Shown piece after piece: positions 996 to 3,437 of a DNA stretch of 46,955 nt (within the stretch, counting starts at the first letter, position 1; every line of letters starts with the position of its first letter). The notes under the pieces were generated by a model, which saw only the letters and a list, made by a program, of their open reading frames with translations, did not search any database and had not been told where the DNA came from. The DNA comes from Candidatus Uhrbacteria bacterium (GTDB lineage: Bacteria > Patescibacteriota > Patescibacteriia > UBA9934 > UBA11717), in assembly GCA_018701105.1 (NCBI GenBank), contig JABIWD010000004.1:1-46955 (forward strand). Reading direction: 5' to 3'. Made by a program: the position numbers and the translations under genes.

Positions 996-1024
996 TTGAC
1001 ATCGACCCTGAGAGCTGTTGTAAT
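996..1024 (+). promoter_or_regulatory. sigma70-type promoter of tRNA-like RNA copy 1 (TTGACA-N17-TGTAAT)
   Basis: TTGACA 996-1001, 17-bp spacer, TGTAAT 1019-1024; flanks (CCTATCCCCAACGACCC...GAGCTGTTGTAATAGAAGCA) nearly identical to copy 2. Confidence 0.75.
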
Positions 1025-1028
1025 AGAA

Positions 1029-1207
1029 GCAGCCTTGTGAGGTTTAAGACCTCCAAATTCAGGGTGGCGACAAATTACCTCCCCATTATTCGTCTCATTG
1101 AGATGAACGGGGAGGTTTTTGTATCTCATGGGCCCGTGGAGGTAATGGTAACCTTGCATGGTTTGCCACCCTGAGTCGCGGATTCGATTCCCGCCGGGTC
1201 CATGAGG
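1029..1207 (+). ncRNA. putative novel tRNA-like ncRNA, copy 1 (leader hairpin, antisense segment, terminator-like hairpin, tRNA-like 3' domain)
   Basis: tRNA-like domain 1130-1202: acceptor GGGCCCG/CGGGTCC, T-loop TTCGATT, D-like arm GAGG...CCTT, no normal anticodon loop; leader TTCAGGGTGGC (1058-1068) complementary to GCCACCCTGAG (1165-1175). Confidence 0.65.
1077..1120 (+). terminator. terminator-like hairpin inside the RNA copy 1 leader
   Basis: ACCTCCCC(1077-1084)/GGGGAGGT(1109-1116) plus inner TCGTCTC/GAGATGA, followed by TTTTT. Confidence 0.5.
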
Positions 1208-1218
1208 GTTTAACCTAT

Positions 1219-1242
1219 AAAAAAGCCGTAGCAAGTGCTACG
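1219..1242 (-). terminator. Rho-independent terminator of the 1238-1582 gene
   Basis: minus strand CGTAGCACTTGCTACGGCTTTTTT. Confidence 0.6.
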
Positions 1243-1582
1243 ACGATGTGCGGAAACGACCGAGAATGCCGGAACCAAACGACAAGAGTCCGAGCCAGAA
1301 CCATGCGACCACGATCACGAGCGCGCCCACTGGCATCACGTCGTACTGAACGAGATGAACGAGCACGATGAAGAAAGACAATGGCGCGGTGTAATAGCCC
1401 GTGCCAAAGATCGACGCCATCACCCAGACCAAGATCACTTTTCCGAATCCCGTCTCGCTCAATTGCATCGAAGTCTCACGGTCGCCGATCAAGAGTCCGG
1501 CCGCCATGAGCCCCGTTGCCCACATGATCCCGAACGTATACAGAAACTGCCACCACTCAACCGAAGAAGAATCGTAAAACAT
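1238..1582 (-). CDS. hypothetical small multi-pass membrane protein
   Basis: ORF from MFYDSSSVEWWQFLY with SD GGGGGAG; 3-4 hydrophobic segments. Confidence 0.6.
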   Translation of the reverse strand: MFYDSSSVEWWQFLYTFGIMWATGLMAAGLLIGDRETSMQLSETGFGKVILVWVMASIFGTGYYTAPLSFFIVLVHLVQYDVMPVGALVIVVAWFWLGLLSFGSGILGRFRTSS

Positions 1583-1647
1583 GACTCCCCCTTTCAACGC
1601 AAACATAACAATACATCGCTATAAAGTCAACCTATCCCCAACGACCC

Positions 1648-1676
1648 TTGACACCAACCTCGCGAGCTGTTGTAAT
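1648..1676 (+). promoter_or_regulatory. sigma70-type promoter of tRNA-like RNA copy 2 (TTGACA-N17-TGTAAT)
   Basis: TTGACA 1648-1653, 17-bp spacer, TGTAAT 1671-1676. Confidence 0.75.
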
Positions 1677-1680
1677 AGAA

Positions 1681-1862
1681 GCACGCAGGTGAGGAATTAC
1701 TTCCAAATCCTTGTTGACGACAATACACCTCCCCAATTTGTTGGGTGAGGTGTATTTGTTTTGAAACCCCAGTGGACCCTGGGCCCGTGGTGGTAATTGG
1801 TAACCTCACTTGCATCGTCAACAAGGGTCGCGAGTTCGAATCTCGTCGGGTCCACCACTGGG
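1681..1862 (+). ncRNA. putative novel tRNA-like ncRNA, copy 2
   Basis: tRNA-like domain 1781-1857: GGGCCCG/CGGGTCC, T arm GCGAGTTCGAATCTCGT, encoded ACCA; leader TCCTTGTTGACGA (1708-1720) complementary to TCGTCAACAAGGG (1815-1827); leader hairpin TACACCTCCCCAA/TTGGG-T-GAGGTGTA. Confidence 0.65.
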
Positions 1863-1910
1863 TCATACTTGTCCGTGCCCCACCGGATAATCGATTTTAT
1901 TCATAATCAT

Positions 1911-3437
1911 ATGCCTATGCGCACATCGATTATTCCGATTTTATTCAGTCTGTTTCTTATCCCTGGGCTCGCCTCTGCAGCTTCAGTTGATACGGACAGT
2001 TTCACCGTCGACGTCACCGAGACGAACGGTAAGCTCGAGTTTTCTGTTGAACTTCGAGATGTTGAGCCCGAGCCGACGGTGGAGATTAGCGTCGAGCCAC
2101 CTTCAACAGAAGATATCGAATCAGTCATTGGACCCGAGCTACATTCCGGATCCCCTGGTGACATCTTGATCAACGAGTTTGTCTCTGATCCCGTAACTGG
2201 AGATGAAGAATGGATAGAGCTGTATAACACGACTTCGCAGTCCATAACTCTAACGGAGTGGTACTTAATAGATGGCTCGGACAAGAAAACTATGCTCGAG
2301 GGAACGCTGGAGCCCCGTTCATATATGGTGATCCATTCACCAAAAGGCGTTCTAAATAACGGAGGAGATGTGATCGAACTCTATGATGCATTCTCGGCAC
2401 AGATCGACGAGGTCGCTTACGGTTCATGGGACAATGCCACAGCTCCAAAGGCATCTGATCCGGAATCTGTTGGACGAGATCCTGATCAGGAGGAGATGTT
2501 CGTGATCATGACGCCTACTCCGGGCGCAGTGAACGTAACTACAGAGACTGTTGAGGCTGCTACGAGTGATACTTCAGTCGAGACAGATGACGATACCAGC
2601 AATACTGAAACCGACACTACAGATGAACAAGTTAGCGACCATGATTCAACAACGGGCGACTCAACAACGTGCACTCCAGCGGAAGAAGACGCTGGTGATG
2701 CTTCGGACGTTGCAGGCCCACAGTTTGTTGAGCTCGCGAATATCCGCGGACTCGCACTTGAGACCGAGCTCGCGACAGAAGGAATCGTTTCCGCAGTACC
2801 AGGAGTACTCGGAAAGCAAGTATTTTACCTTGCAGGATCTGGAATCCAGGTTTACCTGCACAGCTCCGAGTTCCCGCAGCTTGAACGTGGAACACGTGTG
2901 CATGTAGAAGGCGAACTACGGGAGTCTTCGGGCGAGTCGCGCATAAAATTGGACGATGCATCAGACATTCAGATTCTGAGCATGGAAGATGCGCCCACTC
3001 CACACGACATCACAACTGCCGAGATCGGCGAGGCTACGGAAGGATGGCTCGTACGACTAACAGGAATGGTTTCGGAGCGCTCATCTGGCGACTTTTACTT
3101 GGAGGACAGCAACGGAGAAGCTCGCGTGTTTATTAAAGACTCAACGGGCATCGCAAATACAACCGAGGTCGGTGATGAGATCACCGTAACTGGAATCGTA
3201 AGCGAAACTCGATCCGGATATAGGATCCTGCCACGTGATCAAGAGGATCTATTGCCACGAGTTGCTACAGAGGATAGCTCAGACCTACTCGCAATGGGAT
3301 CAACAAGCTCAAACTCACCGAGCGCACTCGGAGGATGGGTGCTTGCATCAGCCGCAGTGCTTGGACTCACGACAGCGGGACTTGTATCTGCAAAAAAGAG
3401 AGGTGCGAAATGGAATAAGTCACCACAAACTGCTTAA
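1911..3437 (+). CDS. secreted lamin-tail-domain (LTD) plus OB-fold-like protein with C-terminal TM anchor
   Basis: Signal peptide MPMRTSIIPILFSLFLIPGLASA; LTD motif ILINEFVSDPVTGDEEWIELYNTTSQSITLTEWYL; OB-like repeats; C-terminal hydrophobic segment then KKR. Confidence 0.7.
   Translation: MPMRTSIIPILFSLFLIPGLASAASVDTDSFTVDVTETNGKLEFSVELRDVEPEPTVEISVEPPSTEDIESVIGPELHSGSPGDILINEFVSDPVTGDEEWIELYNTTSQSITLTEWYLIDGSDKKTMLEGTLEPRSYMVIHSPKGVLNNGGDVIELYDAFSAQIDEVAYGSWDNATAPKASDPESVGRDPDQEEMFVIMTPTPGAVNVTTETVEAATSDTSVETDDDTSNTETDTTDEQVSDHDSTTGDSTTCTPAEEDAGDASDVAGPQFVELANIRGLALETELATEGIVSAVPGVLGKQVFYLAGSGIQVYLHSSEFPQLERGTRVHVEGELRESSGESRIKLDDASDIQILSMEDAPTPHDITTAEIGEATEGWLVRLTGMVSERSSGDFYLEDSNGEARVFIKDSTGIANTTEVGDEITVTGIVSETRSGYRILPRDQEDLLPRVATEDSSDLLAMGSTSSNSPSALGGWVLASAAVLGLTTAGLVSAKKRGAKWNKSPQTA

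Follow-up and report, generated by a model that had tools for sequence, protein, structure and literature searches.

A putative alanine-accepting tRNA-like RNA gene with a covarying leader in Patescibacteria

Background

In antisense pairs of the CopA-CopT type, two hairpins exchange strands and thereby form two side-by-side helices. Leader RNAs that recognize a tRNA are typified by the T-box, which uses a three-nucleotide Specifier along with a UGGN:NCCA pairing to regulate protein genes (PMC4695836). A tRNA-like RNA outside translation is exemplified by tRNA-Other of Bacillus cereus, a pseudo-tRNA with a Trp anticodon that some Bacilli encode in a single gene and that is charged poorly with lysine (PMC3399842). 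Charging of tRNA-Ala itself depends mainly on G3:U70, the principal bacterial alanine determinant, along with A73, G2-C71 and G4-C69 (PMC9976931).

The window considered here is an entire contig of 46,955 bp from a genome of 894 kb in 63 contigs. It holds two copies of an element in which two leader segments, A and B, pair with partner strands, A' and B', of a downstream tRNA-like domain (TLD). Across copies the element has a recurrent gene anatomy, two covarying leader helices and an invariant G3:U70 pair, and copies of one genome do not cross-pair. No Rfam family describes it: a search of Rfam 15 gave nothing above cut-offs beyond generic tRNA. Likewise, no description was found in the open literature within reach of our search, most subscription papers and preprints lying outside it.

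Anatomy of the two window copies

All parts lie on the forward strand and are as follows:

996..1024, +, copy 1 promoter, TTGACA 996-1001, 17 nt, TGTAAT 1019-1024; recognized from sequence, with a predicted start near 1031
1031..1044, +, copy 1 segment A, pairing with A' 1150-1163 (10 Watson-Crick pairs, 3 wobbles, 1 mismatch)
1057..1070, +, copy 1 segment B, a lengthened version of the guide first noticed, pairing with B' 1163-1176
1077..1120, +, copy 1 terminator-like hairpin, ACCTCCCC 1077-1084 with GGGGAGGT 1109-1116, T run 1116-1120
1130..1202, +, copy 1 TLD with G3:U70 and A73, followed by TGA and no encoded CCA; Rfam tRNA 37.5 bits, R1 83.8 bits
1150..1163, +, copy 1 A', the end of the D loop, the D-stem 3' strand and the anticodon-stem 5' strand
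1163..1176, +, copy 1 B', the anticodon loop and the anticodon-stem 3' strand
1648..1676, +, copy 2 promoter, TTGACA 1648-1653, 17 nt, TGTAAT 1671-1676; recognized from sequence and conservation, with a predicted start near 1683
1685..1694, +, copy 2 segment A (GCAGGTGAGG), pairing with 1804-1813 (CCTCACTTGC)
1707..1720, +, copy 2 segment B, pairing with 1815-1828
1723..1762, +, copy 2 terminator-like hairpin, ATACACCTCCCC 1723-1734 with GGGTGAGGTGTAT 1743-1755, then a T-rich run
1767..1774, +, copy 2 outer helix 5' strand (ACCCCAGTGG region), pairing with the encoded CCA and the trailer CCACTGGGT directly after the TLD
1781..1857, +, copy 2 TLD including the encoded CCA, with G3:U70 and A73; R1 88 bits, and tmRNA-TLD-like below cut-off in cmscan
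1804..1813, +, copy 2 A', the D-stem 3' strand and the anticodon-stem 5' strand
1815..1828, +, copy 2 B', the anticodon loop and the anticodon-stem 3' strand

A scan for consensus promoters and terminators flagged neither the window promoters nor the hairpins, because of the G at position 2 of TGTAAT and hairpin loops longer than 8 nt; the case for them comes from conservation across copies. In 73 of 74 copies TTGAC precedes helix A by 35-38 nt, B and the TLD are separated by a hairpin and T run in 75/75 (median -16.9 kcal/mol), and a terminal hairpin and T run follow the TLD in 81 of 83. An outer helix around the TLD also exceeds expectation (own 7.81 vs other 6.39; maximum of 20,000 permutations, 6.92). 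The spacing from B to the TLD is nearly constant, with a median of 59 nt, which favours pairing in cis.

Between the copies lies a small membrane-protein-like ORF of 122 aa on the reverse strand (1238-1606), without a Pfam match. Copy 2 is followed by a gene (1797-3434, forward strand) whose product looks secreted and contains an OB fold and a lamin-tail domain; a homologue of this gene follows a copy in another family (L009). No flanking gene is common to most copies.

Distribution and variants

Of 60 relatives, 20 gave BLAST matches, a few of which were ordinary tRNAs. R1, a covariance model of the TLD, was run on 73 genomes of the order, with scores above about 60 bits taken as the element and lower ones marking the start of ordinary tRNAs. 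It recovered about 85-86 copies, ranging from 0 to 8 per genome; a genome lacking a detected copy is not proof of absence because divergent copies score in the tRNA range. Nearly every named relative with the element belongs to Candidatus Uhrbacteria. Three copies are found in the window genome (C43:1130, C43:1781 and C25:5544), and nearly all fetched copies have one layout of promoter, A, B, hairpin, TLD and terminator. Two of 16 pattern hits (L043, L051) were rejected as members, being chance matches.

The sister species G001 has a single copy (L019), its domain resembling that of copy 1 and its downstream flank that of copy 2. Set against the two window copies, which lie 650 bp apart (978-1860), this points to a duplication or a deletion between them. 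Degenerate copies are seen at L117, L145, L025 and L030; in L117 both leader and TLD have decayed, as expected if neither were useful alone. In L064, L072, L097, L100, L025, L111 and L122 a much greater distance (about +160 to +190) separates promoter and TLD, and in L097, L100 and L025 the loop of the middle hairpin, which still closes, contains extra sequence starting AACTCCCCCGAGTTG. At L022 and L070 transcripts seem to begin almost at B, so that A is missing and B alone is retained. In another family of the class, several copies cluster on one contig (G092:C28; L187, L188); two of these, with a canonical D arm, are labelled tRNA-Ile(GAT) despite G3:U70, and their leaders (L187) retain a 13-bp B without A. 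These two may lie near the ancestral form.

Outside the order, the same class contains divergent members that have B, hairpin and G3:U70, and in most cases A too (L136, L138, L140 and L143, among others), and the same plan is seen in other classes of the phylum (L126, L127, L129, L162, L169, L186 and L189-L191). The score of a second model, R2 (about 40-55 bits), cannot part such members from ordinary tRNAs, whereas a test of A/B complementarity can: ordinary tRNAs in the same searches gave B values of at most 8.6, usually below 6.7, and newly found members at least 11.3. ARAGORN calls neither window copy a tRNA and labels most divergent members tRNA-Ser, -Thr, -Leu, -Pro or -Ile. The element has been overlooked, since gene finders either miss it or label it an ordinary tRNA, and errors may therefore be present in the tRNA inventories of these minimal genomes.

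Two leader helices covary with their own TLD

The sequence-only reading had matched a leader guide to the anticodon region in each copy, and both helices are there as described. In copy 1, TTCAGGGTGGC (1058-1068) pairs with GCCACCCTGAG (1165-1175) through 10 Watson-Crick pairs and the wobble T1058:G1175, and the helix extends to 1057-1070 with 1163-1176 (12 Watson-Crick pairs and 2 wobbles); in copy 2 the helix of 1708-1720 with 1815-1827 gains one more pair, A1707:T1828. Its description of the two guides as unrelated needs one amendment, namely that they have a TG-CGACAA core in common. Each 12-mer guide occurs twice in the 894-kb genome by exact match, once in the leader and once, as the reverse complement, in its own TLD. 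A guide aimed at other genes was accordingly rejected for exact 12-mers, whose sole other genomic site is the TLD that they precede.

Also present is a second helix, A:A', that had escaped the earlier reading (1031-1044 with 1150-1163 in copy 1; 1685-1694 with 1804-1813 in copy 2). Segment A makes up the first 10-14 nt of the predicted transcript, and its partners are the D-stem 3' strand, position 26 and the anticodon-stem 5' strand. A:A' is as strong a helix as B:B'.

That the pairing reflects compensatory change, as proposed from two copies, is borne out over tens of copies by leader swapping and by column pairing. With leaders swapped among 32 copies, B complementarity was 11.4 for the own leader against 6.1 for swapped ones, and none of 100,000 permutations reached the observed sum; for helix A, too, 0/100,000 permutations reached the observed complementarity. 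The choice of the best register cannot explain this signal because own and swapped pairs underwent the same register search. About 50 further copies agree in their complementarity to the own leader. Even copies within one genome keep apart (B own 11.2 vs cross 6.2). By column, in 31 aligned copies, B' positions 35-42 are 100% paired with up to four pair types, which no shuffle equals, and the core of A:A' is 94-100% paired. The word 'perfectly', used earlier of the covariation, holds for this 35-42 core but not for the helix ends, which fray. An alignment of 35 sequences, four of them from outside the order and with the middle hairpin loop removed to keep columns in register, has 178 both-side cell changes as against 34 in shuffles, counts that are uncorrected for phylogeny; sliding the partner strand abolishes the signal.

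One further proposal did not survive. The pairing of ATTACCTCC with the D-arm strand GGAGGTAAT exists in copy 1 but is unconserved (own 4.29 vs other 4.42 over 75 copies), and 18,837 of 20,000 permutations reach the observed score; it is a coincidence of copy 1. The leader-helix structure as a whole is near certain, and the suggestions that the pairing crosses the acceptor stem and excludes a normal anticodon arm are supported. A switch or a two-piece RNA was likewise the right pair of hypotheses with which to frame it.

Alanine identity and departures from decoding tRNAs

G3:U70 is present in 86/86 copies, A73 in 84/86 and G2-C71 in all 35 aligned sequences, and CCA is encoded in about 70 copies. 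Acceptor pairs 1-3 hardly vary, and pairs 4-7 change with compensation; the 4-69 pair is usually C-G, unlike the G4-C69 of the published alanine set. G3:U70, A73 and G2-C71 together make up the sequence identity set of an AlaRS substrate, from which charging itself is predicted.

The anticodon region has a different character. Decoding tRNAs carry a purine at position 37, whereas the element has C37 in 67 of 83 copies, with U33 in 77 of 83. Judged by its sequence, the TLD would not qualify as a decoding tRNA, for which a regular 5-bp anticodon arm, a 7-nt loop, U33 and a purine at 37 are the marks. The window genome encodes a separate ordinary tRNA-Ala(UGC). A tRNA for RqcH-dependent alanine tailing was considered and rejected, as RqcH (NFACT_N) is above the family cut-off in 0/73 genomes.

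Proposed cloverleaf and masked states

The strands captured by A and B are also those of the D and anticodon stems. In the 35-sequence alignment the D stem is 96% paired and the anticodon stem 82%, and both covary, so that selection appears to preserve the cloverleaf as well as the masked state. In 19/35 the pair 31:39, which closes the loop, is not formed. Estimated energies, which ignore topology, favour the leader-bound state in 78/78 copies (median -16.5 kcal/mol). Taken together these features suggest strand exchange between the cloverleaf and the masked state.

A proposed masked alanyl-RNA and its rivals

We give a probability of about 0.5 to the reading that the element is a tRNA-like RNA that accepts alanine but does not decode, its D and anticodon arms being reversibly masked by the leader. 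The gene unit would comprise a sigma70-type promoter, a leader (A, inner hairpin, B), a terminator-like hairpin, the TLD and a terminator. The TLD would have descended from tRNA-Ala and retained the parts recognized by AlaRS, RNase P and the CCA machinery, namely the acceptor stem with G2-C71 and G3:U70, A73, the T arm and the D loop. Capture of A' (about 10 bp) and B' (about 12 bp) by the leader would put two helices in place of the D stem and the anticodon arm and conceal the anticodon, so that the RNA could be alanylated yet unable to decode, and RNase P cleavage at G1 would probably yield a two-piece masked alanyl-RNA. Since conservation extends to the D and anticodon stems, masking probably works by a strand exchange that can be reversed. 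What we infer from these comparisons is that the gene is transcribed, that its RNA is alanylated and processed by RNase P, and that masking is both reversible and the purpose of the leader. Several features count against this reading: the hairpin between B and the TLD has the look of a functional terminator, and read-through into the TLD would then be limited; the conserved anticodon stem and U33 would be compatible with decoding or cloverleaf activity; and A is absent from L022 and L070 and from the two copies of L187 that have a canonical D arm.

The internal terminator-like hairpin leaves room for a feedback attenuator, a possible though doubtful explanation. The hairpin would then be a working terminator, and the finished TLD would pair in trans with A and B of its own nascent leaders and tune read-through, as in a T-box-like autoregulation where the regulated gene is the tRNA-like RNA itself and copy-specific guides keep the loops private. 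The placement of hairpin and T run directly after B in every one of the 75 copies, the specificity of the guides within a genome and the conservation of both hairpin states are all as such a device would have them. However, there is no conserved antiterminator, the sole candidate pairing with a hairpin arm being unconserved, and pairing in trans has no need of the near-constant distance from B to the TLD.

A form of the masked alanyl-RNA reading, which we regard as improbable, makes the element a dedicated alanine donor to cell-wall or lipid aminoacyl transferases of the FemX type, sparing the alanine of translation. FemX uses Ala-tRNA and needs G2-C71 (PMC4052509), a pair invariant in the element but expected in any case from tRNA-Ala ancestry and AlaRS recognition. 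FemAB genes (for example on G000:C59) are found in 71 of the 73 genomes of the order; however, these include genomes without a detected copy, so that co-occurrence does not discriminate, and G063 and G031 have copies without a detected FemAB. FemX-type peptidoglycan transferases are a candidate consumer of the alanyl-RNA, and only a lead. One copy (L014; G024:C8) lies less than 1 kb from a FemAB gene.

The combination of alanine identity with non-alanine anticodon-like triplets could also describe an RNA toxin and its antidote, in which a free alanine-charged TLD would mistranslate through foreign anticodons and the leader, made first and, by virtue of the terminator, in excess, would neutralize it. 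Cognate-specific pairing and uneven copy number, 0 to 8 among related genomes, fit this idea; it is nonetheless a long shot, as the prevalence of C37 makes decoding unlikely, plasmid, phage and viral-contig collections gave no match to the element, and some copies adjoin the same genes in different families or genera.

We give very little credence to a tmRNA-like ribosome rescue RNA, to which the G3:U70 TLD, devoid of a D stem in the masked state as in tmRNA, and the weak cmscan score of the TLD as tmRNA might point. A normal one-piece tmRNA with its tag is present in the same genome, so that replacement of tmRNA was rejected, and inspection by eye of the leader found no conserved reading frame, tag frame or in-frame stop after B. 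Poor tRNA scores, the lack of an ARAGORN call in the window and a few truly degenerate copies (L117, L145) might have suggested ordinary tRNAs, or pseudogenes of them, whose upstream complementarity is a coincidence; the covariation refutes this. Tens of divergent copies moreover retain the promoter, the two helices, the hairpin, the terminator and G3:U70, and such complementarity is absent from ordinary tRNAs in the same searches.

Returning to the masked alanyl-RNA reading in its broadest form, we see an even chance of a phylum-wide set of alanylated regulatory or donor RNAs, neither tmRNA nor T-box nor decoding tRNA, in which a tRNA would be toggled between cloverleaf and leader-masked states by strand exchange in cis, with up to about eight orthogonal copies per genome. 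If so, one of the largest bacterial radiations would have yielded a novel type of tRNA-derived RNA gene, carried by the Patescibacteria, tiny members of the Candidate Phyla Radiation. Such a gene would raise the question of how and why a cell withholds an alanine-charged tRNA from decoding, and its copy-specific guides would amount to a natural set of orthogonal RNA strand-exchange pairs.

Comparison with known systems

The evident ancestor is tRNA-Ala, with which the element has in common the acceptor stem (G1-C72, G2-C71, G3:U70), A73, the T arm and the D loop; it differs in its variable anticodon arm, a usually unpaired 31:39, C37 and pairing with its own leader, and in having a promoter, leader and internal hairpin of its own. 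To tRNA-Other it is comparable as a tRNA-like RNA proposed to act outside translation; no covarying leader is described for tRNA-Other in the part of the account drawn on here (PMC3399842). As in tmRNA, there is an alanine-type TLD whose anticodon arm is replaced by another helix and whose D stem is dispensable, in our element in the masked state; unlike tmRNA it has no mRNA-like domain or tag, and it matches tmRNA only in the TLD and below cut-off. The T-box likewise has a leader RNA that pairs with a tRNA anticodon next to a terminator-like hairpin, but the element commits about 22 bp to a TLD on the same transcript, its downstream product is that TLD with its own terminator, and cmscan gave no T-box match in it even at E up to 5. 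With antisense pairs of the CopA-CopT type the element would share the exchange of strands between two hairpins to give two adjacent helices; unlike them, it apparently works in cis, within one circularly permuted transcript, and its target is a tRNA-like RNA.
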